A stretch of DNA of 64,000 nucleotides from Dasania sp. GY-MA-18. Its GTDB lineage: Bacteria; Pseudomonadota; Gammaproteobacteria; Pseudomonadales; Dasaniaceae. The notes beneath the pieces were generated by a model that had not been told where the DNA came from, did no database searches, and was given only the letters and a program-made list of their open reading frames with translations. The stretch spans positions 124,001 through 188,000 of the forward strand of contig NZ_JANHAP010000007.1 in NCBI RefSeq assembly GCF_024734385.1, in the 5' to 3' direction. Of this stretch, positions 5,255 through 17,591 are shown one piece after another. The translations under genes were made by a program, and so were the position numbers. Each line of letters starts with the position of its first letter. Position 1 is the stretch's first letter.

Positions 5255-5368
5255 AGGGCGGTTGTAATAACATCTAGTGATTATTGGTTAAGCAACAAGT
5301 GTAGCAGAGTTCGCTAACTTGTTGATATTTCGATAGAAGAATCCTCTTTTTCTAGCTTATATACAAGC

Positions 5369-6412
5369 TTAAAAGGCGGGGATGGGGGTTTTTGAGCCAT
5401 AGTTGGGCAATTCGCGTACCAGTTTGGGCACTAGGTAGCCGGGCAGCCGGTCGCGCAGCGCTGCCAGTAGTGCAATGGCGCGCTCTTCAGCCACATCAAA
5501 ATGCGCAGCCCCTTGTACCTTATCTAGCACATGCAGGTAGTAGGGCAGCACGCCTTGGGCAAAAAGTTTTTCGCTCAGTGCCTGCAGGGTGGCGCTGTCG
5601 TCGTTGATGTGGGCCAGCAGCACGGATTGGTTGAGTAGGGTGACGCCTGCAGCTTTGAGTTTGGCCATGGCCTGCTGTACGCGCTCGTCCAGTTCATTGG
5701 GGTGGTTGCAGTGAATCACAAACACTGTTTGCAGGCGGCTGCCGGTTAACAGGGCTACCAGTTCATCGCTGATGCGTTCGGGTATAACCAGAGGCAGGCG
5801 GCTGTGTACGCGCAAGGTGTGTACATGGGGTATGGCGGCTATGCGCTGTACTAATTCGGCTAGTTGTTTATCGCTGGCTACCAGCGGGTCGCCGCCGCTG
5901 AGTATCACTTCGCTAATGCTGTTGTCGGCGGCGATATAGTCCAGTGCGTTTTGCCATTCTTGGCGGCTGGGGTTGTTATCCTCATAGGGGAAATGGCGCC
6001 TAAAGCAATAGCGGCAGTTTATGGCGCAGCCGCCGCTGACTACCAGCAGCACCCGGCCGTGATATTTATGGATTAAACCAGGGTGAGGGTTACTGCTTTG
6101 CTCCTCTAACGGGTCGGCAACAAAGCCTGTTTGCGCTAATAGCTCAGCCCCTTGCGGTAACACTTGCAGTAGCAGAGGGTCATTCCAGTCGCCGCGCTGC
6201 ATTTTATCCACAAAGGCGCTGGGCACTCGCAGGGCAAAATCTTGGCAGGCCGCAAGGTGCGCGGGCATGTCTTCGGCTTGCAGGTCTAGGCGGGCAAATA
6301 GCTCAGCGGGCTCGCGTATTAGCGTTTTAAGCTGTTGCTGCCAGCTGGCGGTGGCCGGGGTTTTGCTCTGCCAAATTAGGTCGGTAGGGGCTGTCATAGG
6401 TGTACTGCTCAT
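5369..6412 (-). CDS. epmB: EF-P beta-lysylation protein EpmB (lysine 2,3-aminomutase family)
   Basis: Radical-SAM, PLP-dependent enzyme that converts (S)-alpha-lysine to (R)-beta-lysine for attachment to elongation factor P. 347 residues, normal for EpmB and shorter than catabolic KamA. The iron-sulfur triad is CxxxCxxC at C129, C133 and C136 (GGCAINCRYCFRRHFPY). A C-terminal GSKTPI carries the lysine likely to bind PLP. Its partners efp and epmA are in the window but about 9.5 kb away, separated by the amine island; in many gammaproteobacteria epmB and efp are divergent neighbours. The start ATG has an in-frame ATG six codons on; the longer form is kept. Confidence 0.94.
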   Translation of the reverse strand: MSSTPMTAPTDLIWQSKTPATASWQQQLKTLIREPAELFARLDLQAEDMPAHLAACQDFALRVPSAFVDKMQRGDWNDPLLLQVLPQGAELLAQTGFVADPLEEQSSNPHPGLIHKYHGRVLLVVSGGCAINCRYCFRRHFPYEDNNPSRQEWQNALDYIAADNSISEVILSGGDPLVASDKQLAELVQRIAAIPHVHTLRVHSRLPLVIPERISDELVALLTGSRLQTVFVIHCNHPNELDERVQQAMAKLKAAGVTLLNQSVLLAHINDDSATLQALSEKLFAQGVLPYYLHVLDKVQGAAHFDVAEERAIALLAALRDRLPGYLVPKLVRELPNYGSKTPIPAF

Positions 6413-6710
6413 GGCCAGCGGTGGCCAGGGTTAGGGCTTAAACGCTGGTCATTATACCAAGATTAGCGCAGGGACTAGTAGCGGCTAGAAAAAGCAGGGG
6501 CTGGTATGGGGATTATTAATGATACGCCATAATTCCAATGCCGTCTGGTTTTGTGTCGTTTGCTCTGTTATTGTCGCTGACACGGTTGGCAGGTTTAAGC
6601 ATAGACATGTTATAGGCCTGGGTTGAGCTTAGTGGTTTACTGGCAGCCGGTTAGGGAATGAGGATAAGGGCCGTTATTGCTTTGTTATCAGCTTTCAGGA
6701 GCCGCATGCC

Positions 6711-7664
6711 ATGATTATAGTTAGCCCCTCTAGTGCCGACAGCACGCAACAGCAGTTTGAGTCTTGGAGCCATGCGGTAAATCAGACCTTTAGCGCGGTT
6801 GCCTGTGAGAGAACTGGGGTGCTGACTAGTAATTTTGACGGCCATTTAGCGTCTACCCAGCTTGAGCGTACCCACTTAGCGCAGGTGCAAAGTGCGCCTT
6901 TGGATATTTACAGGCGCAAACCCCATATTGCTGAAGTGAGTGATGATTACTATTTGGTTAAGTTTCAAGTCGAAGGTGTAGGTGTTTTTAGCCAGCTGGG
7001 GCGCGAGGCTGTGCTAATGCCTGGGGACTTTGTGCTGGCCAGCACGGTCGAGCCCTATGAGTTGCATTTTCCCCAGCATTATCGCCAAGCGGTGTTAGCC
7101 ATTCCGCAAAATATTTTGCAAGACCAGTTAGCTGACCCCGAGCAGTACCTGGGTAGGCATATGGCCAGCAACCAAGGCACGAATGGCCTTTGCAGCCAGT
7201 TTGTGATGTCGTTGCTGCAGTCTATAGATAATTTTGAGACTGGATTGGTGCAGCGTTTAGAGGCAAATATGCTGGACTTGCTGGTGACCTCATTAACTTA
7301 TAGTAGGCCTAGCGCGCAGCGTGTGGATAGAGAGTTGCGCGCTGAGCATATCTATCGAGTGAAAAACTTTATTAATAAACACCTTAAAGATACCCGGCTA
7401 TCTCCCGAAATGATTGCGCAAGCACAGGGGATTAGCACCCGCTATTTGCACATGTTGTTTAAGCCTGAGGGGGTGTCGGTAGGCCGCTATATACAGCAGC
7501 AACGCTTGCAAGGCTGTAAAGCCTCTTTGGAAAACCCCGAGCTTAGCGCGCTCACCGCTACAGAAATTGCTTATCACTGGGGCTTTAATGATGCTTCGCA
7601 TTTTGGCCGTAGCTTTAAAGCAATGTTTGGAGTTTCGCCAGGTCAATACCGTAAATGCTTATAG
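6711..7664 (+). CDS. AraC-family transcriptional regulator, FeaR-like
   Basis: 317 residues. An N-terminal cupin-like sensing domain of the AraC_binding_2 type (about 20-190, with FQVEGVGVFSQLGREAVLMPGDFVL) precedes a C-terminal double helix-turn-helix (about 215-315, ending ATEIAYHWGFNDASHFGRSFKAMFGVSPGQYRKC, the classical AraC signature). E. coli FeaR has this architecture and controls tynA and feaB, the amine oxidase and phenylacetaldehyde dehydrogenase genes. Here the gene directly precedes a TonB receptor, an aldehyde dehydrogenase and the amine dehydrogenase genes on the same strand, so it is probably their activator responding to an aromatic amine or its aldehyde. AGGAG ahead of ATG 6711 supports the start. 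Confidence 0.85.
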   Translation: MIIVSPSSADSTQQQFESWSHAVNQTFSAVACERTGVLTSNFDGHLASTQLERTHLAQVQSAPLDIYRRKPHIAEVSDDYYLVKFQVEGVGVFSQLGREAVLMPGDFVLASTVEPYELHFPQHYRQAVLAIPQNILQDQLADPEQYLGRHMASNQGTNGLCSQFVMSLLQSIDNFETGLVQRLEANMLDLLVTSLTYSRPSAQRVDRELRAEHIYRVKNFINKHLKDTRLSPEMIAQAQGISTRYLHMLFKPEGVSVGRYIQQQRLQGCKASLENPELSALTATEIAYHWGFNDASHFGRSFKAMFGVSPGQYRKCL

Positions 7665-7704
7665 TTATTGATCTTTATTACTGCCACTAATTTTTTATTG
7701 ATCT
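7665..7704 (+). repeat. 10-bp direct repeat, candidate operator for the AraC-type regulator
   Basis: TTATTGATCT occurs at 7665-7674 and again at 7695-7704, exactly 30 bp apart, close to three helical turns. It lies in the 280-bp gap between the regulator and the TonB receptor gene. AraC-family proteins commonly bind direct repeats on one DNA face. Only the sequence is seen; its role as an operator is inferred. Confidence 0.35.
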
Positions 7705-7944
7705 ATGCGCAAGCTTTGTAATGCCTTTTAGCTTTGCATTTCATCAGGGCCTGTGTATTTCGCTTTCAGTCAATTTTTCTTTTCTCTCTAGTGCCATCGC
7801 TGTTGGCTTTTGTTTGCTTTACTAGCTTTACTAAAGTGAAACAGCTTTGGTTGATTTGGGCCGCGCCCAAATAAATCATAACAAAAATAATATGCACCCT
7901 ATTCATGCCAACGCTATGAGTATCAAAGGGTAAAGGAGAGATCG

Positions 7945-10128
7945 ATGCCAAATGTAAAAGGTCAAAAAAAATTTTTAAGTTGCAGTATCGCAGGGCTATT
8001 GTCTACCGCTATGACCTTGCCCGTATCTGCAGCGGTACTGGAAGAAGTCATGGTAACCGCTCAGAAGCGCGAACAAAGCCTGCAAGATGTAGGTATATCC
8101 GTTTCTGCATTCAGCGGCGACCAGCTAAAAGATTTGGGTGTGACTAACAGCACTGAAATCGTGCAACAAATACCAGGCATGCAACTGCAAACTTTTACCC
8201 CCGCTTTCACCATTATCAACTTACGGGGTATCTCCCAAAATAATTTTCAAGACAACTTAGAAGCGCCGGTGGCGGTTTATGTTGATGGTGCCTATGTGCC
8301 CAGCATGAATGCCATTAACGGCCAGCTGTTTGATGTGGGGCGGGTAGAAGTTTTGCGTGGTCCGCAGGGCACCTTATTTGGTCGTAACAGTACCGGTGGC
8401 TTAGTGCATTACCTTACCCGCGGTGCCGACGCGCAAGAGCTAAATGGCTATATGGAAGTGACGGCGGGTGAATTTGATATGCGCGCCGTAGAAGGTGCAG
8501 TCGGTGGCGCTATCAGTGACTCGGTGCGCGCGCGTGTTGCCGGGCGCTGGATGGAGCACGATGGCTATGTGGAGTCACAAACACCGGGTATACGCGATGC
8601 CCACGGTGCCAATGGTTACAGCCTACGCGGTGCTTTTGAAATTGATATTACTGACAACTTGCTAGCTGATTTACGATTAGGCGTGGCAGAAGACAGCGAT
8701 GTGCCTTCGGGCACTTACTCAATAAATTTTGCCAGCGCGGATCCTAACACGGGTTTGGGGGTGCAGGCACCGGGCCGTTTAACGGATGGCTTAGAACATG
8801 CTTCCAGCATAGAGGGCAGCTTCGATCGTGATATGACTAACTTTACCGGCACCTTAACCTGGTCGCTGGCTGATGATATGGAGTTGGTGTCTATTACGAA
8901 TTACCTGGAGCTAGAAAAAGATTATTTAGAAGATGCCGGCGGCGGTTTGTTTTTCTTTCCTTATACCGTCAACACCGAGTTTGATAGTTTTTCACAAGAG
9001 CTACGTTTATCGGGCAGCGATGAGGGCATACGCTGGCAAACCGGGCTCTATTATTTGGACATGACTACAGATAATTTTCAGCGGGTTGCTGGTGCGGCCA
9101 TATTGGGGGCTGCAACGGAAACAGCGCTACAAGATAGCATTGCCAGCTTGGATTCCAAAAACTGGTCGGTGTTTGGGCAGGTGGAATTCGACCTTAGCGA
9201 TCAGCTGACATTGATTGCCGGTTTGCGCTGGTCGGAAGATGACAAAAGCATAGACTTCGCACAATTTTACGAAGAGCTGGGGGCAGGCACGCCTCGCACG
9301 CAGCTATTTGATATCGCCGCCGTGCCAATTAACGATATCGATAACATAGATTACCAAGACTATGCCGCCCGCTTACAGTTGAACTACACCACCGAAGAGG
9401 GCGCTTTATTTTATGGCTCTATTAATCGCGGTATTAAAGGCGGCAACTGGTCGGTAGACCCTGTGGGCGGTGTGGCTGCAGGCGACCCCGCAAACTTAAA
9501 ACATGATGAAGAAGTGCTGCTGTCTTATGAGCTAGGTGTCAAAACAGACTTGAGCGATTGGGCGCGGTTGAATAGCTCCATTTATTACTACGATTACAAT
9601 GATTACCAGGCATTTTCTTTATTGAACCTAACGCCACAGGTAACTAATTCCGACGCTAGCTCTTATGGTGGTGAGATAGAGCTGACTATGTCGCCAATAG
9701 AAGGCATGGATCTGCTATTGGGCTTGGCCTATATAGATTCTGAAGTTGATGCCGTGCCCGATGTATTTGGCGGCACCGTAAAAACAGAGTTCCCCAATGC
9801 GCCCAAACTTAGCGTTAACTTATTAGCGCGCTATCAGTGGGAGGCACTGGGCGGCCGCGTGGCTGTACAGGCCGATGGTGTGTGGAACGATGATCAATAT
9901 ATAGAAGCCACCAACTCACAAATTTCCGAAGAAGATGCTCACCTAGTGTGGAATGCGCGCGTCTCTTATGCCTCTTTAGATGAAACCTGGAAAGTGACAG
10001 CCTGGGTGAAAAATGTAGGCGATGAAGAATACCGCATGTACAACTTGGATCTGGGCTTACTGGGTATTAGTGAAGAGGTTTATGCGCCACCGCGTTGGGC
10101 CGGTGTCACGGCTACCTACAATTTTTAA
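7945..10128 (+). CDS. TonB-dependent outer-membrane receptor of the amine island
   Basis: 727 residues with a signal peptide ending near VSAAVLEE, a TonB-box-like EEVMVTAQKRE, a plug domain (about 45-160, containing RVEVLRGPQGTLFGRNSTGGLV) and a beta-barrel ending ...GVTATYNF with the C-terminal Phe used for BAM-dependent insertion. It takes substrates across the outer membrane using TonB energy. It lies between the FeaR-like regulator and the aldehyde dehydrogenase, all on the plus strand, so it may take up an aromatic amine or an amine-bearing conjugate; that substrate is inferred. AAGGAG ahead of ATG 7945 fixes the start. It resembles the two receptors at the right edge only at the general family level. 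Confidence 0.9.
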   Translation: MPNVKGQKKFLSCSIAGLLSTAMTLPVSAAVLEEVMVTAQKREQSLQDVGISVSAFSGDQLKDLGVTNSTEIVQQIPGMQLQTFTPAFTIINLRGISQNNFQDNLEAPVAVYVDGAYVPSMNAINGQLFDVGRVEVLRGPQGTLFGRNSTGGLVHYLTRGADAQELNGYMEVTAGEFDMRAVEGAVGGAISDSVRARVAGRWMEHDGYVESQTPGIRDAHGANGYSLRGAFEIDITDNLLADLRLGVAEDSDVPSGTYSINFASADPNTGLGVQAPGRLTDGLEHASSIEGSFDRDMTNFTGTLTWSLADDMELVSITNYLELEKDYLEDAGGGLFFFPYTVNTEFDSFSQELRLSGSDEGIRWQTGLYYLDMTTDNFQRVAGAAILGAATETALQDSIASLDSKNWSVFGQVEFDLSDQLTLIAGLRWSEDDKSIDFAQFYEELGAGTPRTQLFDIAAVPINDIDNIDYQDYAARLQLNYTTEEGALFYGSINRGIKGGNWSVDPVGGVAAGDPANLKHDEEVLLSYELGVKTDLSDWARLNSSIYYYDYNDYQAFSLLNLTPQVTNSDASSYGGEIELTMSPIEGMDLLLGLAYIDSEVDAVPDVFGGTVKTEFPNAPKLSVNLLARYQWEALGGRVAVQADGVWNDDQYIEATNSQISEEDAHLVWNARVSYASLDETWKVTAWVKNVGDEEYRMYNLDLGLLGISEEVYAPPRWAGVTATYNF

Positions 10129-10213
10129 AGTAGCCAGTTAGCAGTGCTTGCTAACGAATAGAGCAAGCACTGCGTATTAAAAAGATGATGGCGCTGTTTT
10201 AGGAGTAAAAAAG

Positions 10214-11635
10214 ATGAGTGGCCTAGGATTGATTATTAACGGCAAACGGGTAGCTACAGCAGAGAGCTTTGATGTTATCAACCCCGCCACAGAACAAAGC
10301 GTTGCCCAGTGTCCGCAAGCTAGCCAGGCTCATGTAGATCAAGCGGTAGCTGCCGCAAGGGCGGCGTTTACGGATTGGAGTCAGGTTGATGATCAAGAGC
10401 GCAAAGCAGCCGTGCATAAAATTGCCGACTTGCTGGAGGAGCATGCTGTTGAACTAACACGCTTAATTACCCAAGAGCAGGGTAAACCGCTACAGGGCTT
10501 TGCCGGTTTGGGCTCAGAGTTTGAACTCGCTGGCGCAGTAGCTTGGTGTCGAACCACCGCCGAGTTAGATTTGCCGGTAAAAGTGTTGCAGGACGACGAG
10601 ACTCAGCGCGTTGAGTTGCACCGCAAACCGCTGGGAGTGGTGGGTTCTATCACGCCTTGGAACTGGCCTTTACTAATTGCCATTTGGCATGTAATCCCCG
10701 CCATACGCAGCGGTAATACCGTTGTGCTAAAACCTTCGCCGTTTACGCCTTTAGCGACACTGCGCTTTGTTGAGTTGGCTAATCAAGTACTGCCCGCCGG
10801 TGTATTAAATAGCGTGACGGGTGGTGGTGATATAGGCTCGTATATGAGTGCGCATGAGGGCATTAATAAAATGGTTTTTACTGGCTCTACCGCAACCGGC
10901 AAAAAAATCATGCAAGGTGCCGCCAGTAATTTAAAACGCTTAACCTTAGAGCTGGGTGGCAACGATGCCGGTATCGTATTGCCAGATGTTGATGTCGATG
11001 CTGTAGCCATGGGTATCTTTGCCACTGCTTTTATTAACGCTGGCCAAACTTGTGCGGCGTTAAAGCGCCTGTATGTGCACGAAGATGTTTACGAGCCTTT
11101 GTGTGCCGCATTAAAGGCAATTGCGGATAGCACGACACTGGGCAATGGCTTAGATACCGGTGTGGATTTTGGCCCTGTACAAAACCCTGCGCAGTTAAAA
11201 ATTGTAGAAAGCTTGGCGCGGGATGCCGAGCAGCAGGGCGGCCGTTTTCTCAGTGGCGGCCATGCTCCGCAAGGGCCCGGATTCTTTTTCCCCATTACAC
11301 TGGTGGCCGATGTGACGGACGGCTGTCGTTTAGTGGATGAAGAACCCTTTGGCCCAATCTTACCTATAATCAAGTATAGCGATATAGACGATGCCATACG
11401 CAGAGCCAATAACAACGCCTGTGGTTTAGGTGGCTCGATTTGGTCCAGCGATATCAAGCTGGCCGCGCAGCTGGCAAACCGTTTGGAATGTGGCACAGTG
11501 TGGATAAACAACCACGCGGCGGTACAGCCCAACGTGCCTTTTGGTGGGGTTAAACAGTCCGGCTTTGGGGTGGAGTTTGGCAGCGAGGGCTTAGAGGAAT
11601 ACACCTCTATACAGTCAGTTTTTATTCCCAAGTAA
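10214..11635 (+). CDS. NAD(P)-dependent aldehyde dehydrogenase
   Basis: 473 residues, full length for the ALDH superfamily. The catalytic cysteine is C280 in FINAGQTCAALKR and the general base is E246 in LTLELGGNDAG. The PWNWP and FTGSTATGK segments of the coenzyme fold are present. No signal peptide, so cytoplasmic. Lying 85 bp downstream of the TonB receptor and 63 bp upstream of the amine dehydrogenase heavy chain, it probably oxidises the aldehyde released by periplasmic amine oxidation, such as phenylacetaldehyde or 4-hydroxyphenylacetaldehyde, to the acid. This mirrors feaB in E. coli. The exact substrate cannot be read from the sequence. Confidence 0.92.
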   Translation: MSGLGLIINGKRVATAESFDVINPATEQSVAQCPQASQAHVDQAVAAARAAFTDWSQVDDQERKAAVHKIADLLEEHAVELTRLITQEQGKPLQGFAGLGSEFELAGAVAWCRTTAELDLPVKVLQDDETQRVELHRKPLGVVGSITPWNWPLLIAIWHVIPAIRSGNTVVLKPSPFTPLATLRFVELANQVLPAGVLNSVTGGGDIGSYMSAHEGINKMVFTGSTATGKKIMQGAASNLKRLTLELGGNDAGIVLPDVDVDAVAMGIFATAFINAGQTCAALKRLYVHEDVYEPLCAALKAIADSTTLGNGLDTGVDFGPVQNPAQLKIVESLARDAEQQGGRFLSGGHAPQGPGFFFPITLVADVTDGCRLVDEEPFGPILPIIKYSDIDDAIRRANNNACGLGGSIWSSDIKLAAQLANRLECGTVWINNHAAVQPNVPFGGVKQSGFGVEFGSEGLEEYTSIQSVFIPK

Positions 11636-11698
11636 ACCAGCGCTAGGCTTAATAGGATACAGGCCACTGTTGATCAAGACGGAAAAAGAGATAAAACC

Positions 11699-12892
11699 AT
11701 GTACCGTACAAAAACGTTTCATTTTTTAGCGCGAATAGTTGTCACTTGCTTGGCTTCAGTTGTGGCTGCTAGCAGCTATGCCGCTAAAGCAGAAATGCCG
11801 CCCTTGGCCATAGAAGAAATTGGCCGTATAGAAAAGCTGCCGGCCAGTTACCCAGAAGATTGGGTGCTTATCGATGAGTCCAGCTTTTTTAATATGTATG
11901 GCGGCAAGGTTATTATTTTAGATGTGGCTGAAAAAGATCACCCCAAACGCATGAAGGGCATGTTGAGTAAAAGCATGTTGGGCAATTTTACTCAATCTGC
12001 TAAGCGCGGTGAGTATTACATTATAGAGTCGTTTCACGAGCGCGGTTCACGCGGGAAAAAATTTGATGTGCTGGTTATTTATGACAAGCAAACCTTAAAT
12101 ATTAAAAAAGAAATCCTCTGGCCCACCGATCGTTTGCAATCTTTGCCTGAGCGTTACTCCATGTCGGTGTCTGCCGATGAGCGCTTGCTGTATGTGTCTA
12201 ATTTTAATCCCGCGGCTTCTTTTACTGTGGTGGATTTAGATAGCAGAGAAATTGTAGAAACTATAGGCACGCCGGGTTGTGTACTGACTTATCCCATGGG
12301 CAAGCGCAGGGTGGTGTCTATATGTAGTAATGGCGGCTTACTGACCACGGTGTTAAATGATGATGGTACGTTAAAGTCCCGCCATCGCATGGCGTCTTTT
12401 TTTGATACCGACGACAGCGCTGTTTTTGAATGGCCAGTGTTGGTGGGCGGCAAGGCCTATTTCCCCAGTTTTCACGGCGATTTACACGTAATAGATTTTA
12501 GCGGTGAGGTGGCTGAGTATCAGGGAAAGTGGAGCTTAACCAATAAGCAGGAGCGCGCAGCAAACTGGCGCCCAGGTGGCTTAGCCCTTACCGACAGGGA
12601 TGATGCCGGTCACCTCTATATTATTATGCAGCCCGATGGCCACGAAGGTACACAAACCCATGGGGGTAGCCAGGTATGGGTGTTTGATTTGAAAACAAAA
12701 AAACGCTTGCGCATTATTGAGGTGCCTAACTGGGCGGTGTCGCTGGCAGTGACTCGTGGCGATAATCCCAAATTGGTGATTACCAATGGTGAAATGAATC
12801 TGGACATCTTTAATGCAAAAGATGGCAGCTTTATACACACGGTTACGGACTTTAATAACATAACTCCCTTGTTAATACACAAGTCTTATTAA
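11699..12892 (+). CDS. aauB: Amine dehydrogenase heavy (alpha) chain, AauB/MauB family
   Basis: 397 residues. A Sec signal peptide (about 1-29, ending SSYAAKA) is followed by a seven-bladed beta-propeller chain typical of the TTQ amine dehydrogenase large subunit, with segments such as IIESFHERGSRGKKFDVLVIYD, SVSADERLLYVSNFNPAASFTVVDLD, LVGGKAYFPSFHGDLHVIDF and GGSQVWVFDLKTKKRLRIIEVPNWAVSLAVT. It forms the alpha2beta2 periplasmic enzyme with the light chain encoded at 14077. It is the first gene of a B-E-D-A run, the order known for both methylamine (mau) and aromatic amine (aau) dehydrogenases. The aldehyde dehydrogenase and FeaR-like regulator favour the aromatic type, hence the aau symbol; the substrate is inferred. 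Confidence 0.9.
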   Translation: MYRTKTFHFLARIVVTCLASVVAASSYAAKAEMPPLAIEEIGRIEKLPASYPEDWVLIDESSFFNMYGGKVIILDVAEKDHPKRMKGMLSKSMLGNFTQSAKRGEYYIIESFHERGSRGKKFDVLVIYDKQTLNIKKEILWPTDRLQSLPERYSMSVSADERLLYVSNFNPAASFTVVDLDSREIVETIGTPGCVLTYPMGKRRVVSICSNGGLLTTVLNDDGTLKSRHRMASFFDTDDSAVFEWPVLVGGKAYFPSFHGDLHVIDFSGEVAEYQGKWSLTNKQERAANWRPGGLALTDRDDAGHLYIIMQPDGHEGTQTHGGSQVWVFDLKTKKRLRIIEVPNWAVSLAVTRGDNPKLVITNGEMNLDIFNAKDGSFIHTVTDFNNITPLLIHKSY

Positions 12893-12913
12893 ACCGTGTT
12901 GGAGGTTGAGGGA

Positions 12914-13453
12914 ATGGAATTAGTTTCAGTACTAGTGAATGCCGCAGCGCTATTTTTATTATGGCTGTTTGTGGCTGCGGGCTCGCATAAGTTACAAAGC
13001 AATAATAGCGAATACTATGAAGTGATTTTTGCTGGCTACGGTATTCAATCCGCATTTTTAGCGCAGCAACTGCCTAAGCTAGTCGGTGTAATTGAAGTGG
13101 TAGTGGGGATGCTGTTATTGGTGCCGGCCTTGCGACCTTGGGGCGCTGCCGCTGCGGCTGTCATTTTGGCGGCTTATGCACTATTGATTTTATTACAGTT
13201 ATTGCAAGGTAAGTCAGGCATGGACTGTGGTTGTGCTGGGCCTGATGGCGAAATAAAAATTAGCCCAGCGTTATTGCTAAGAAATTTAGTGTTGTTGAGC
13301 CTGGCTGTGTTTTGTTGGCAGGCGGTAGTTACAGTTGGCGTGATGCCTTGGCTAATATCGGTATTAGCGGCCACTGTTTTAATACTGGTGTATTTAAGCG
13401 GCGAACAACTCATGGTAACGGCGCAAAGAATTCAATTAATACAAAGGGGTTAA
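12914..13453 (+). CDS. aauE: MauE-like membrane protein for amine dehydrogenase maturation
   Basis: Integral membrane protein of about 179 residues with four or five hydrophobic segments (for example LVNAAALFLLWLFVAAGSHKL, VVGMLLLVPALRPWGAAAAAVILAAYALLILL). The DCGCAG motif near the middle of the chain is typical of MauE and related DoxX-like partners of thiol oxidoreductases. MauE and MauD are required to form the disulfide-rich light chain. GGAGG at 12901-12905 lies 8 bases ahead of ATG 12914; an in-frame GTG at 12896 is the alternative. The gene follows the heavy-chain stop by 21 bp and is adjacent to mauD, as in mau and aau operons. Confidence 0.86.
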   Translation: MELVSVLVNAAALFLLWLFVAAGSHKLQSNNSEYYEVIFAGYGIQSAFLAQQLPKLVGVIEVVVGMLLLVPALRPWGAAAAAVILAAYALLILLQLLQGKSGMDCGCAGPDGEIKISPALLLRNLVLLSLAVFCWQAVVTVGVMPWLISVLAATVLILVYLSGEQLMVTAQRIQLIQRG

Positions 13454-13455
13454 GC

Positions 13456-14055
13456 TTGGACATACTTGTGATTTCAAATATTGTGTTGTGGATTGCCGTA
13501 GTGATTATGGCAGTTGTGATTTTTGCCCTAACCAGACAAATAGGGGTGCTCTTTGAAAGAGTGGCTCCGGCAGGGGCTTTGGCGGTTAATCAAAACTTGA
13601 AAGTGGGGCAGGTCGCGCCGGAGTTGTCGTTGCAGACTATGGATAATCAATTGCTTAATGTCGGCGGTGCATCTGAGGATGGACGTTCACAGTTACTGTT
13701 TTGGGTGTCGCCGGAATGCCCGGTGTGCAAAACCTTATTGCCCGCGTTAAAAAGCGCCGCCAAGGCCGAGTCCGATTGGCTTAAATTAGTACTGGCCAGT
13801 GATGGTATGGAGTTGGACCATCAGGCTTATGTAAAACAGTACGATTTACAAGGGCACCCTTATATTGTTTCTGAATTGCTAGGTAAAACCTATGGCGTGG
13901 CCAAACTGCCTTATGCGGTAGTGATAGATGAGCAGGGCAAGATAGCCTCTATGGGTATTATCAATTCACGCGAACATTTGGAGAGTTTGTTTGAAGCTAA
14001 GGAGCGCAAGGTTGCCTCCATACAAGATTATTTAAGCAATCGTGTTGGCCACTAG
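13456..14055 (+). CDS. aauD: MauD-like periplasmic thiol-disulfide protein for light-chain maturation
   Basis: About 199 residues from a TTG start two bases after the mauE stop, with AAAGGGG ahead of it. The start gives LDILVISNIVLWIAVVIMAV, matching the usual MauD N-terminal anchor; longer readings only run back through mauE. A thioredoxin-like domain carries the CPVC active site in WVSPECPVCKTLLP. It faces the periplasm and helps form or isomerise the disulfides of the light chain. The RQIGVLFERVAPAGAL segment after the anchor is characteristic of the family. Confidence 0.88.
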   Translation: MDILVISNIVLWIAVVIMAVVIFALTRQIGVLFERVAPAGALAVNQNLKVGQVAPELSLQTMDNQLLNVGGASEDGRSQLLFWVSPECPVCKTLLPALKSAAKAESDWLKLVLASDGMELDHQAYVKQYDLQGHPYIVSELLGKTYGVAKLPYAVVIDEQGKIASMGIINSREHLESLFEAKERKVASIQDYLSNRVGH

Positions 14056-14076
14056 AGATCACTAAGGTTTATAACA

Positions 14077-14592
14077 ATGAAAATACTGGATAAATTTTTT
14101 GAGCGCACGGCCAGATCGGTGGCGCAGCAATCTTCCCGGCGCGGTTTGTTAAAAAACTTAGGTGCAGCATTAGTGGGCGGTGCCAGCATACCCTTATTAC
14201 CGGTAGCCAGAGCCGCTGAGCCCGCACCGAAAATGCCTGCGGAAGAGGGCGATCCGGCCAGCTGTGAATATTGGCGTTATTGCGCGGTGGATGGTTTTCT
14301 CTGCCAGTGTTGTGGCGGCACTTATAACTCCTGCCCGCCGGGTACAGAGATGTCCACCATTACCTGGGTGGGCACTTGTCGCAACCCCGTGGATGGTCGC
14401 AGCTATGTGATTTCCTATAACGATTGCTGCGGCGTTAATCAATGTGGCACTTGCCTGTGTCAGCGCGATGAGCGCGACCGGCCCTTATATAGATCTGACA
14501 AATCCAACGATATTAATTGGTGTTTGGGCTCCAAGAGTTATGTTTATCACTGCTCTACCGCGATAGTGGTGGGCGTGGCGTTTGAGCAATGA
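14077..14592 (+). CDS. aauA: TTQ-containing amine dehydrogenase light (beta) chain, aromatic type
   Basis: 171 residues. A twin-arginine-type leader (SSRRGLLKNLG then a hydrophobic stretch ending ARAAEP) sends it folded to the periplasm. The two tryptophans that crosslink to tryptophan tryptophylquinone are conserved at W97 (STITWVGTC) and W148 (NDINWCLG), and the catalytic base corresponds to D116 in SYNDCCG. The mature chain has 14 cysteines (63, 69, 76, 78, 79, 86, 101, 117, 118, 123, 126, 128, 149, 159). Methylamine dehydrogenase has 12; the extra C79 and C123 match, from memory, aromatic amine dehydrogenase. It converts primary amines to aldehydes plus ammonia and passes electrons onward. 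Its stop overlaps the next start by 4 bp (ATGA). Confidence 0.93.
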   Translation: MKILDKFFERTARSVAQQSSRRGLLKNLGAALVGGASIPLLPVARAAEPAPKMPAEEGDPASCEYWRYCAVDGFLCQCCGGTYNSCPPGTEMSTITWVGTCRNPVDGRSYVISYNDCCGVNQCGTCLCQRDERDRPLYRSDKSNDINWCLGSKSYVYHCSTAIVVGVAFEQ

Positions 14593-15032
14593 TACGGGCA
14601 CTGCTGCTAATTGCGTTGCTATGGCCAGCCAGCCAGCTTATGGCTGAAGCGGTAAGCAATGAGCGTCGTGCCAAATTTAATTATCAAATGTTTTGCCAGG
14701 GCTGCCATACCCAAGATGGTATGGGGGGCAGGGGGGTACCGCAGCTAAAAGGTTTTATGGGGCATTTTCTTAGCTCGCAGGTGGGCCGTGAATATTTAGT
14801 GCGCGTACCCGGCTCGGCTAATTCGGTGTTGGATGATGAGCAGCTGGCTGAGGTATTAAACTGGATGCTGTTAAATTTTGCAGAAGATAGTTTGCAGGCA
14901 TCGTTTCAACCTTATCAGGCCAGCGAAGTGGCAGGCTACCGGCAACAGCCCTTGATGGAAGTCCTGGCTTATCGCAAAGCCTTGGTTGCAGCGTTGATGA
15001 AGCAAGAGGGCTTAGCGCTATCTTCACCCTAG
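14589..15032 (+). CDS. Periplasmic monohaem cytochrome c of the amine dehydrogenase operon
   Basis: 147 residues with a Sec signal peptide (about 1-19, ending SQLMA) and a single haem site CQGCH at C36, C39 and H40. The ATGA overlap with the light-chain gene indicates translational coupling. It probably takes electrons from the TTQ enzyme or passes them towards the terminal oxidase. From memory, the Alcaligenes faecalis aau cluster also carries cytochrome genes after aauA. It is far too small to be MauG, which is a dihaem protein of roughly 350-400 residues. No azurin or amicyanin gene is nearby, which strengthens the case for a cytochrome acceptor. Confidence 0.82.
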
Positions 15033-15072
15033 TGCGGCTACTAATGGGTATAAAGCTAAAAGGTTAATCACA

Positions 15073-15627
15073 ATGAAATACGTAACAATAATAATGCTGT
15101 TGAGTGCGCTGATAACCGCGAATAGCGCAACGGCAGATGCGGCGGATATGGCTAAAACCTGTGCCGCTTGCCACGGCGCTAATGGCATCGCCAGCAATAG
15201 CCAGTGGCCTAATTTGGCGGGTCAGAACAAAGACTATTTAATTGCGCAGCTACAGGCTTTTCGTGACGGCAGCAGAGTCGATCCATTGATGTCACCCAGC
15301 GCCAAGTCACTCAGCGATCAGGATATCGCCGCTCTGGCCACTCACTATGCCAGTTTGCAGCCTGCGGTCAATACTGCCCCAGCCAAACTAAACCTGGCGG
15401 GTATGAATATACGCGCCCGCTGTGTGTCCTGCCACGGCATGGAAGGCAAGCCGGTAAACTCGCAGTGGCCCAATATTAACGGCCAGCAACAGGCGTATTT
15501 AGCCAAGCAATTAACCGCCTTTCGCGATGGCAGCCGTCATAGCGAAATTATGAAGGTCATCGTTAAGGGTTTTAGTGATCAACAGATAGCCGATGTGGCG
15601 GAGTACTACAGCCAAATACCGCGTTAG
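15073..15627 (+). CDS. Dihaem cytochrome c4-like protein
   Basis: 184 residues with a Sec signal peptide (about 1-22) and two haem-binding sites, CAACH at 30-34 and CVSCH at 117-121. The two halves repeat each other (SQWPNLAGQ...[14 protein letters not shown] against SQWPNINGQ...[14 protein letters not shown]), the internal duplication typical of cytochrome c4. It is the last gene of the amine island, 40 bp after the monohaem cytochrome, and probably carries electrons from amine oxidation to a cytochrome oxidase. A role in TTQ formation in place of MauG cannot be excluded, but c4 proteins are normally electron shuttles. Confidence 0.86.
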
Positions 15628-15949
15628 CCTGCCCCTATATGCGTGAGAGCCACTCTTGCCCTTGCGCCTGTGTTTTTAGCCCCCGCCTTTAAATAAACCT
15701 ATGCTGCGTCCGCCTTGGTTAAATTCAAGGCAAGACTGCGGTATAATCGCCCGCAACTAGCTAGCCCCAGGGGTTTTTATCTCTTTGTATCTCCAGCCCG
15801 CTATGCCCAGGTTTTATAGTCGCTAAGTGTTTTTAGTGCCTGCCTGTGACAGCTTTGGGATTAGGGCTAATACCAGGATTTACCAATAAGCTGTTATAAA
15901 TCAACAGTTTATCTAAACTACAAATATATCTGTAAAGGCAGTATGTGAA
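15628..15949 (+). other. 322-bp gap between the amine island and efp
   Basis: No coding region was found here. It marks the right edge of the accessory island and holds the candidate efp promoter listed separately, followed by a leader of about 195 bases. No terminator with a convincing stem was seen directly after the dihaem cytochrome, and no inverted repeats, tRNA remnant or integrase that would mark an insertion boundary. Confidence 0.6.
15719..15747 (+). promoter_or_regulatory. Candidate sigma-70 promoter for efp
   Basis: A perfect -10 TATAAT at 15742-15747 is preceded, 17 bases upstream, by TTAAAT at 15719-15724, a weak -35. It would give efp a leader of roughly 195 bases. Confidence 0.5.
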
Positions 15950-16519
15950 ATGGCTACGTATTCAACTAATGAGTTTAAAAACGGTCTCAAGCTGATGTTA
16001 GAGGGCGACCCCTGCACCATACTTGAGAACGAGTTTGTGCGCCCAGGTAAAGGTCAGGCGTTTAACCGGGTTAAGTTTCGCAACTTAAAAACTGGCAGAG
16101 TGTGGGAGCGCTCCTTAAAGTCTGGCGAAAAGCTGGAAGGCGCTGATGTACTGGATATAGAGGCCGAGTACCTCTACAGCGACGGTGAGTTTTGGCACTT
16201 TATGGAGCCCAATACTTATGAGCAGTATCAGGCCGATGCCAATGCGGTAGCCGATGTTAAAGACTGGCTAAAAGAGCAAGATAAGTGCGTGGTTACTCTA
16301 TTTAATGGAGCGCCTCTAGCCGTACAAGTGCCCAACTTCGTAGACTTGGAAGTTACCGATACCGATCCCGGTGAAAAAGGCGATACCGCCCAAGGTGGCA
16401 GCAAGCCGGCGACCCTTAGCACGGGTGCGGTAGTACGCGTACCGCTATTTATTAATATTGGTGAAGTCTTGCGTATAGATACACGTACTGGCGAATATGT
16501 TAGCCGCGCTAAAGGCTAA
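15950..16519 (+). CDS. efp: Translation elongation factor P
   Basis: 189 residues, the full three-domain EF-P. It enters the ribosome between the P and E sites and rescues stalling at consecutive prolines. The modifiable lysine is K34 in the loop RPGKGQAF, the lysylated type rather than the rhamnosylated Arg32 type of Pseudomonas, consistent with epmA 70 bp downstream and epmB elsewhere in the window. The C-terminal [13 protein letters not shown] end is intact. It has its own candidate promoter and is followed by a terminator-like hairpin. Confidence 0.97.
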
Positions 16520-16530
16520 ACTCCCTCACA

Positions 16531-16565
16531 CGGCTCTGCTGATTTAGCAGGGCCGTTATTGTTTT
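16531..16565 (+). terminator. Terminator-like hairpin between efp and epmA
   Basis: CGGCTCTGCT (16531-16540) pairs with AGCAGGGCCG (16546-16555), including one G-U pair, around a 5-base loop. It is followed by TTATTGTTTTT. Termination may be partial, because epmA starts only about 25 bases later. Confidence 0.6.
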
Positions 16566-16589
16566 TATGTATTCATGTTAGTGCAGCCT

Positions 16590-17549
16590 ATGTCAGTTTG
16601 GCAACCCTCCGCGGCTATCTCACGACTACAGCATCGAGCGCAATTATTAGCGCAGACGCGGCAGTTTTTTGCTGAGCGCGGGGTATTGGAAGTGGAAACC
16701 CCGTTGCTATGCCAGCACGCAGTTACCGACCCCCATATGCCCATTTTGGCGGCTGATAACCCCTTATTGGGCGAGCAGCCCTATTATCTGCAAAGCTCCC
16801 CCGAATATGCCATGAAGCGTTTATTGGCAGCGGGCAGCGGCCCTATTTACCAATTGTGTAAAGCCTTTAGGGGCGGTGAGCAAAGCCGCCGTCACAACCC
16901 TGAGTTCAGCATGTTGGAGTGGTATAGGCCGGGCTTTGATCATTTCCAATTAATGGACGAAATATCGGATTTATTAATAGCGCTAATGGCTGTGCCTGCG
17001 GCGCAACAGATTTCTTATGGGGAATTATTTGAGCAGCACTTGGGTATCAACCCCCATACCGCAACCGCAACGCAATTAGAGCAATTGGCCCGTCAGCAGC
17101 TTGATATACAAATGCACAGTGATCAGCGTGACGATTGGTTAAATCTGTTAATAGCCGAAGTGATAGAGCCCAAGCTGGGCTTTGATACCCCGCTATTTAT
17201 CTACGATTACCCCGCCAGCCAGGCAGCCCTGGCAAGGCTCGCCACAGACGCTAACGGCCATGCTGTGGCGCAACGCTTTGAGCTGTATGTGCAGGGTATA
17301 GAGTTGGCCAATGGTTATTTTGAGTTAACCGACAGCGCTGAACAGGCGCGGCGTTTTCAGCAAGAGCAGCAACAGCGCCAGCAATTGAATCAGCCTGCGA
17401 TGGCTAGCGATGCTTATTTATTGGCGGCTCTAGAATCGGGCCTGCCTGAGTGTGCGGGTGTGGCTTTGGGCTTTGATCGCTTGGTGATGCTGGCCCTGCA
17501 GTGTGAGCGCATCGATGAGGTGTTGAGCTTTACTAGCGATAAGGCTTAA
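16590..17549 (+). CDS. epmA: EF-P lysyltransferase EpmA (GenX/PoxA)
   Basis: Class II lysyl-tRNA synthetase paralogue without an anticodon-binding domain. It adenylates beta-lysine and attaches it to K34 of EF-P. About 319 residues from ATG 16590 (MSVWQPSAAISRLQHRAQLL), which matches the E. coli protein start; an in-frame ATG at 16575 adds five residues. Class II motifs are visible: RGVLEVETPLL, FRGGEQSRRHNPEFSMLEWYRPG for motif 2, and GVALGFDRLVML for motif 3. It acts with EpmB (5369-6412, opposite strand) and EF-P directly upstream. Confidence 0.95.
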   Translation: MSVWQPSAAISRLQHRAQLLAQTRQFFAERGVLEVETPLLCQHAVTDPHMPILAADNPLLGEQPYYLQSSPEYAMKRLLAAGSGPIYQLCKAFRGGEQSRRHNPEFSMLEWYRPGFDHFQLMDEISDLLIALMAVPAAQQISYGELFEQHLGINPHTATATQLEQLARQQLDIQMHSDQRDDWLNLLIAEVIEPKLGFDTPLFIYDYPASQAALARLATDANGHAVAQRFELYVQGIELANGYFELTDSAEQARRFQQEQQQRQQLNQPAMASDAYLLAALESGLPECAGVALGFDRLVMLALQCERIDEVLSFTSDKA

Positions 17550-17556
17550 GTTTTTA

Positions 17557-17591
17557 GTTGCAAGTTGCAAGTTGCAAGTTGCAAGTTGAAA
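17557..17591 (+). repeat. 7-bp tandem repeat (GTTGCAA)n
   Basis: Four perfect GTTGCAA units at 17557-17584 and one imperfect unit (GTTGAAA) to 17591 lie between convergent epmA and the TauE/SafE gene. The core TTGCAAG also appears in the inverted repeat at 22683-22745, so both may belong to one intergenic repeat family. Confidence 0.85.

Follow-up and report, generated by a model that had tools for sequence, protein, structure and literature searches.

The gene block between epmB and efp

We analysed a 64,000-nucleotide stretch of the genome of Dasania sp. GY-MA-18 (contig NZ_JANHAP010000007.1, positions 124,001 to 188,000; hereafter the window), in which nine genes, all on the plus strand, separate epmB, divergent on the left, from efp and epmA on the right (Table 1). 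The block carries the genes of an amine dehydrogenase with a tryptophan tryptophylquinone (TTQ) light chain, together with a small monohaem c-type cytochrome whose possible part in making TTQ is the main subject here. The genes, their positions and their common strand had been given in a preliminary description of this DNA and are confirmed by the translations of the open reading frames (ORFs) and by profile matches.

Table 1. Features of the epmB-efp region, in window coordinates
Feature	Position	Strand	Basis and remarks
epmB	5369..6412	-	left flank; EF-P beta-lysylation radical SAM protein; TIGR03821, 490 bits (cut-off 369)
inserted stretch	6482..15685		bounds are the ends of DNA homology with congener G001 (blastn)
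AraC-family regulator, FeaR-like	6711..7664	+	PF14525, PF12833; NF007243 (FeaR), 191.9 bits (cut-off 199)
TonB-dependent outer-membrane receptor	7945..10128	+	PF00593, PF07715
aldehyde dehydrogenase	10214..11635	+	PF00171, 495 bits
auB, amine dehydrogenase large subunit (Me-amine-dh_H)	11699..12892	+	PF06433
auE, MauE-like membrane protein	12896..13453	+	PF07291, 75.9 bits
auD, MauD thiol-redox protein	13462..14055	+	TIGR02661, 183.1 bits (cut-off 188.6); start codon uncertain
auA, TTQ-bearing light chain (Me-amine-dh_L)	14077..14592	+	PF02975, 173.5 bits; twin-Arg leader SRRGLLK
small monohaem c-type cytochrome	14589..15032	+	CxGCH at residues 36-40; shortened distal loop; candidate TTQ maturation factor
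two-haem c-type cytochrome, c4-like by eye	15073..15627	+	two PF00034 stretches; two CxxCH
efp	15950..16519	+	right flank; PF01132, 73.4 bits; 96 % identical to congener EFP
epmA	16575..17549	+	right flank; 86 % identical to the congener copy beside efp; named from context

AuB gave phmmer scores of 177 bits with aromatic amine dehydrogenase (AADH) and 74 bits with methylamine dehydrogenase (MADH). For AuA the scores were 154 bits with the mature AADH chain and 135 bits with its mature MADH counterpart; one MADH chain with the leader attached reached 156 bits. Both curated MADH models stayed below their cut-offs (TIGR02659, 162.3 of 196.85 bits; TIGR02658, 103.9 of 454.45 bits). Residues W97, W148 and Asp116 of AuA are invariant in 14/14 aligned light chains (the window and 13 relatives) and were also aligned to chain D of AADH 2agl; we take W97 and W148 to be the TTQ tryptophans and D116 the catalytic aspartate. 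The genes run B-E-D-A and then small cytochrome, the ATG of the latter (14589) overlapping the auA stop by 4 nt, and there is no mauG in the cluster. Judged by homology and gene order, the operon is of the aau type (aromatic amine dehydrogenase) and not of the mau type, and it belongs to the known aau kind.

The aau cluster of Alcaligenes faecalis, which Chistoserdov reportedly described in 2001 as being without mauF/G/L/M/N and as having a small monohaem cytochrome gene near it, resembles the window in its B-E-D-A order, its small monohaem cytochrome, its lack of mau maturation genes and its AADH-like subunits. The window block differs by adding a FeaR-like regulator, a TonB receptor, an aldehyde dehydrogenase and a two-haem cytochrome, and by its place between epmB and efp. 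The mau cluster of Paracoccus denitrificans PD1222 likewise has a TTQ light chain, a heavy chain, MauE and MauD, but it differs in having mauF, amicyanin, mauJ, mauG and NapG/NapH-type genes and in lacking a small cytochrome of the present family. In E. coli, where FeaR controls aromatic amine use, the FeaR-TynA-FeaB system pairs a FeaR-type regulator and an aldehyde dehydrogenase for aromatic amines, as in the window, but with a copper/topaquinone (TPQ) amine oxidase instead of a TTQ dehydrogenase.

From the regulator and from homology we infer that phenylethylamine, tyramine and similar amines are the substrates. Phenylacetate is plausible as a product, since the window's own genome has PaaA_PaaC homologues (two neighbouring strong matches, 322 and 313 bits). 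The aldehyde dehydrogenase would be of the aryl-acetaldehyde type; it scored under the cut-offs for aminobutyraldehyde dehydrogenase (433.8 of 615 bits) and StyD (417.3 of 850 bits). The two-haem cytochrome is the probable electron acceptor of the dehydrogenase. The auD reading frame is open from 13312, and because the MauD model (TIGR02661) begins only at ORF residue 51 the true start probably lies near 13450-13462, the listed ORF being overlong at its 5' end. Promoter and terminator scans of positions 6300-16100 gave numbers close to shuffle level (12 versus 13.6 and 14 versus 11.9, respectively). TonB-dependent receptors are found near aau genes in many gamma- and alphaproteobacterial loci.

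Linkage and haem loop of the small cytochrome

We built a profile (model A2) from 69 small cytochromes and compared its matches with those of the light chain in 95 genomes of relatives and 398 genomes of the phylum, the window's own genome belonging to both sets. Strong cytochrome matches (at least 85 bits, rounded) occur in 11 of the 95 relatives (14 copies) and 11 of the 398 phylum genomes (13 copies). In both sets these genomes coincide exactly with those where a credible light chain is found, and the copy numbers agree, although the result for the 95 is not wholly independent because A2 includes the window and two relatives. Light-chain matches in G029 (20 bits, with stops) and in G379 and G410 (22 bits) were left out of the counts, as were cytochrome matches of at most 39 bits in G028, G291, G459, G383 and G203, together with additional weak matches in G264 and G403. 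At the same 85-bit threshold the small cytochrome accompanies the light chain in 13/13 loci of relatives and 75/80 named loci, and in 89/94 of the loci profiled overall; one of the five loci counted as lacking it (L123) stops shortly after the light chain.

The 398 phylum genomes contain no true MADH (none over the TIGR02659 cut-off), so the mau controls were taken from plasmid records. Among 31 such records with a light chain, two of which (H13 and H14) are near-identical, the cytochrome was found in 0/15 with an annotated mauA (E 1e-5) and in 15/16 of the others, the sole exception being a record from Thermomicrobium roseum. In this T. roseum plasmid locus (L162, 3696-11113) light-chain homologues are accompanied by a long MauE-domain protein and several unnamed ones; the locus has neither an annotated mauG nor a small-cytochrome match and is possibly another TTQ-like system.

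The family is marked by a shortened distal loop. Measured in the alignment, the spacing from R67 to N91 is exactly 23 residues in all 86 unique small cytochromes and again in 16/16 further sequences (15 of them outside the 86), and the short loop is visible in L160 and L149, which stand outside the measured set. The sister cytochromes of the same loci have 40-42 residues in this loop and carry a Met there in 29/29 cases, often within GVMPAQ. In related cytochromes the sixth ligand of the haem iron is a Met in this loop, and the same is expected of the sisters. With its short loop and without a conserved Met position, the family lacks the axial distal-loop Met of class I electron carriers; apart from the haem His it has no conserved Met, His or Lys outside CxGCH, and the window protein has no Met in the short loop at all. 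Further features of the family that differ or are absent in the sisters are Y32, G38 (of CxGCH), G75, W92 and R129, and the C-terminal stretch at R129 is missing in 27/29 sisters. N91 is common to the sisters and is therefore not a special ligand.

The AlphaFold2 model of the small cytochrome has a mean confidence score (pLDDT) of 92.6, and the nearest structure is Thermus thermophilus cytochrome c552 (Z 11.6, 2.7 A, 108 residues, 36 % identity). The two proteins have the fold in common, but the long loop of c552 with its axial Met falls in a gap of the alignment. Pfam searches with 69 members returned Cytochrom_C for 62 and Cytochrome_CBB3 for 31, and CCP_MauG for none; no NCBIfam model matches the window protein. 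With one CxxCH, it has neither the two c-haems nor the CCP_MauG domain of the di-haem MauG and cytochrome c peroxidase (CCP) proteins.

MauG and the formation of TTQ

The TTQ of MADH is completed by MauG, a di-haem enzyme (PMC7876137, PMC6405878). We found no match to PF03150 (CCP_MauG) at E 0.001 in the window's own genome, which is 100 % complete; as a control, the search found matches in 2 of 14 genomes, E. coli among them. Other light-chain genomes also lack a PF03150 match, 12/44 in one set and 3/10 in another (together 15/54), including G001 (99 % complete), G088, G181, G306 and G374 (100 %), and also Novosphingobium nitrogenifigens DSM 19370 (G109). The set of 44 is made up of 34 genomes that stand for 35 of the 80 named loci, plus 10 relatives; because L062 and L068 repeat contigs of G056 and G012, and G119 and G121 repeat the same two genomes, the distinct totals are 42 rather than 44 and 52 rather than 54, and both repeated genomes have MauG-family matches. 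A filter for two-haem ORFs of MauG size, applied out to 7 kb from the light chain or to where the locus ends, finds one in 0/85 aau loci, and the same filter detects a MauG-type gene in 3/3 mau loci.

The small cytochrome has the fold of a carrier that has lost its sixth ligand, its presence is tied in both directions, with few exceptions, to that of the aau light chain, and it stands where MauG is missing; for these reasons we hypothesize that it takes part in TTQ formation as a haem enzyme or as a partner. The explanation that fits best, which we put at just short of an even chance, is that the block is an aau catabolic module, acquired upstream of efp at a site where insertion recurs, and that its small cytochrome is a TTQ maturation factor replacing MauG. 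The wider proposal is that there is a second route to TTQ, in which a small c-haem protein, an electron carrier minus its Met-bearing loop, takes the place of the two-haem MauG in aau operons; this is possible and we advance it with some reserve.

Under this hypothesis aromatic amines would induce the block through the FeaR-like regulator. The periplasmic AuA/AuB dehydrogenase would then convert amine to aldehyde and ammonia and pass the electrons to the neighbouring two-haem cytochrome, and the aldehyde dehydrogenase would yield an aryl-acetate that continues along the phenylacetyl-CoA route. AuD and AuE may be responsible for export-stage folding and for disulphides. The small cytochrome would present an open c-haem, probably five-coordinate, which either activates peroxide or oxygen or passes on oxidising equivalents, and would cross-link and oxidise W97 and W148, building TTQ on AuA without MauG.

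Several observations weigh against such a maturation role. A Met is present somewhere in the short loop in 6/86 sequences and in 10/16 of the further set of more distant or additional members. Its positions are scattered (70, 71, 76, 77, 78 and 81), and in L141, L143 and L144 (genomes G306, G181 and G264) it directly follows VPG and might be a haem ligand there. Tyr32, present in 75/86, could also be a ligand. More generally, a short loop is no proof of five-coordination, since the iron might be bound by a different residue or by a partner. The division into short and long loops arises partly by construction, because profile scores separated the two families and the profile used for the loci had been seeded with 71 sequences chosen by their short-loop pattern; independent of this construction are the empty score range between 68.6 and 80 bits and the frequency, given above, with which loci hold a short-loop copy. 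Four of the 80 named loci (L099, L114, L125 and L126) have a light chain and no small cytochrome nearby; auD and auE are likewise missing from these four, and in two of the four assemblies the cytochrome occurs at a second light-chain locus. Family-level matches to PF03150, which may not be true MauG, number one to six in 39 of the 54 other aau genomes. An aau operon of G053 has a CCP_MauG-type two-haem protein next to its small cytochrome; this locus (L013) is outside the 85 aau loci, and the same filter detects its CCP. A monohaem protein would, in addition, have to do alone the work of the two haems of MauG.

The tight linkage to the light chain suits an electron-accepting role equally well. 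A credible if somewhat doubtful alternative, with the same insertion and the same enzyme, is that the small cytochrome accepts or relays the electrons of the enzyme through a haem of unusual ligation and that TTQ arises through AuD and AuE together with a general oxidant, or autocatalytically. The protein has the fold of an electron carrier, that of Thermus c552; a cytochrome encoded after a dehydrogenase is usually its electron acceptor; and some members do have a Met in the short loop. A second suitable cytochrome, however, is present in many of these operons (29 unique long-loop Met sisters, and the two-haem one here), so that the acceptor seems to be this other cytochrome, which varies from operon to operon, the short-loop protein being near-constant. 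Conservation of Y32, G38, W92 and R129 and the C-terminal stretch that nearly all sisters lack would also suit a chaperone or docking factor for the light chain, with a structural or regulatory haem. We consider this unlikely; the haem motif is kept in 86/86 members, a weak argument since CxxCH was required for selection.

If the small cytochrome does replace MauG, haem catalysts for long-range Trp oxidation can be far smaller than MauG, hundreds of loci would use it, and B-E-D-A with the two cytochromes would form a self-contained mobile enzyme-plus-cofactor kit. To our knowledge, how TTQ forms in AADH without MauG has gone unanswered since the aau cluster was described. The genomes without a MauG-family match make the question of the origin of TTQ a clean one, and the near-constant short-loop partner offers a single gene and protein for testing TTQ formation. 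In the open-access literature, outside which most subscription journals fall, we found no paper on TTQ assembly in AADH or on the epmB-efp site, nor any report of a genome-wide lack of MauG, of copy-for-copy linkage or of the shortened Met loop, which may still be in print.

The epmB-efp site and the history of the block

An EFP-family match is present in 95/95 relatives, paralogues counted in, and an EpmB match in 86/95. Among the other genera of the family, 6 of the 7 genomes having both genes show the EpmB and EFP matches at most about 360 bp apart (about 25 bp in G002, 355 in G004, 100 in G005, 245 in G006, 245 in G007 and 60 in G008). The gap widens to 7.3 kb in the seventh (G003), 6.7 kb in G001, the only congener examined, and 9.5 kb in the window. 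In an eighth other-genus genome (G009, 64 % complete) both an EpmB match and a close EFP are lacking. The epmB of G005 (L059, 5009-6038) matches as two overlapping pieces in different frames and may be frameshifted or misassembled.

In blastn comparison with G001 the homology stops at 6481, 69 nt upstream of epmB, and restarts at 15686, 264 nt upstream of efp, with 81.6 % identity over 5300-6481 and 79.6 % over 15686-17587. At the same breakpoints G001 carries an unrelated 6.3 kb block (L048, 6609-12590) with genes for a major facilitator superfamily (MFS) transporter, a TonB receptor, an S58 peptidase and an AraC regulator, which perhaps serves the uptake and cleavage of small peptides. The insertion between epmB and efp that the preliminary description proposed is thus well supported, the two genes being close neighbours in six genomes of other genera of the family. 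The same block in all relatives, with gene trees following the species tree, had been named there as what would speak against it; the evidence points the other way, as the site of the congener holds other genes.

The epmB-efp gap of G003 contains genes for a phage-type integrase, a resolvase, a C5 DNA methylase and an MscS-type channel. A 31-nt stretch over the efp start codon of G003 is duplicated (29/31 identical) about 5 kb away (L050, 5938-5968 and 10908-10938), and the two repeats flank the integrase, resolvase and methylase genes, so that they look like the attL and attR of an element targeting the 5' end of efp. The window block shows no leftover copy of the efp 5' end (best 19/31 matches, versus 17-21 in 20 shuffles). 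It also lacks the other marks of an integrative element or classical genomic island (integrase, att repeats, tRNA, deviating composition). No integrase was found among the scanned proteins, namely the nine of the block and EpmB; no tRNA was found in window positions 1-30000; and the junction regions 6413-6760 and 15601-15960 have no 9-mer or longer word in common. The protein scan and the 9-mer comparison agree with the earlier observation that neither integrase nor flanking repeats are visible. As the window, G001 and G003 carry three different cargoes at the epmB-efp site, we take the region upstream of efp to be a recurrent insertion site within the family. The interest of this 5' flank of efp is lesser and local.

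The preliminary description had also called for a comparison of GC content and codon use with the flanks, and here the block did not prove foreign: its genes have a GC content of 0.455-0.529 versus 0.452-0.568 in nine flanking genes, and GC at third codon positions (GC3) overlaps as well. A foreign base composition was therefore dropped as an island mark.

The congener has an aau operon of its own on another contig, with the regulator last rather than first. Identities between window and congener are 83 % for AuA, 74 % for AuD, 64 % for AuB, 62 % for the aldehyde dehydrogenase, 55 % for the two-haem cytochrome, 53 % for the small cytochrome, 45 % for the regulator, 41 % for AuE and 34 % for the TonB receptor; the corresponding values are 88 % for EpmB, 96 % for EFP and 93 % for SerB. 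In Pseudomaricurvus alcaniphilus (L066, genome G098) AuA is 83 % identical to that of the window, and EpmB only 56 %. The order regulator, TonB receptor, aldehyde dehydrogenase, B-E-D-A and two cytochromes recurs in Kineobactrum (L071) and Haliea (L073), where the TonB receptor is 69-72 % and AuB 41-42 % identical to the window's. In midpoint-rooted FastTree trees, the TonB receptor (support 1.0) and the regulator (0.99) of the window group with Haliea and Kineobactrum. The clade of ten that contains the window AuB (0.91) includes, among others, P. alcaniphilus, Pseudoteredinibacter and Colwellia, with the congener just outside it, and AuA groups with P. alcaniphilus (0.92). The trees of the aldehyde dehydrogenase and of both cytochromes are poorly resolved around the window. 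The earlier view of one transferred catabolic module is too simple, the gene trees being mosaic.

An old vertical arrangement, in which the ancestor of the genus had the aau block between epmB and efp and the congener replaced it, would account for both congeners being occupied at identical breakpoints and both having aau genes. The congener AuB is also the nearest to the window's by branch length (0.64, next 0.68), which counts for vertical descent and against a mosaic. We nevertheless regard such descent as very unlikely, given the low within-genus identities of AuB and the TonB receptor beside that of EpmB, the regulator at the end of the congener operon, the congener AuB outside the clade of ten, and the finding of epmB, efp or epmA in 0/80 named aau loci within the fetched flanks. 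A horizontal history with mosaic assembly still fits these comparisons better.

A Pseudomonas aeruginosa plasmid (NZ_CP115216.1; L163, 6647-10416) carries B-E-D-A and two cytochromes between recombinase and Tn3-family transposase genes. This position suggests that the six genes may travel jointly as a compact mobile aau unit.

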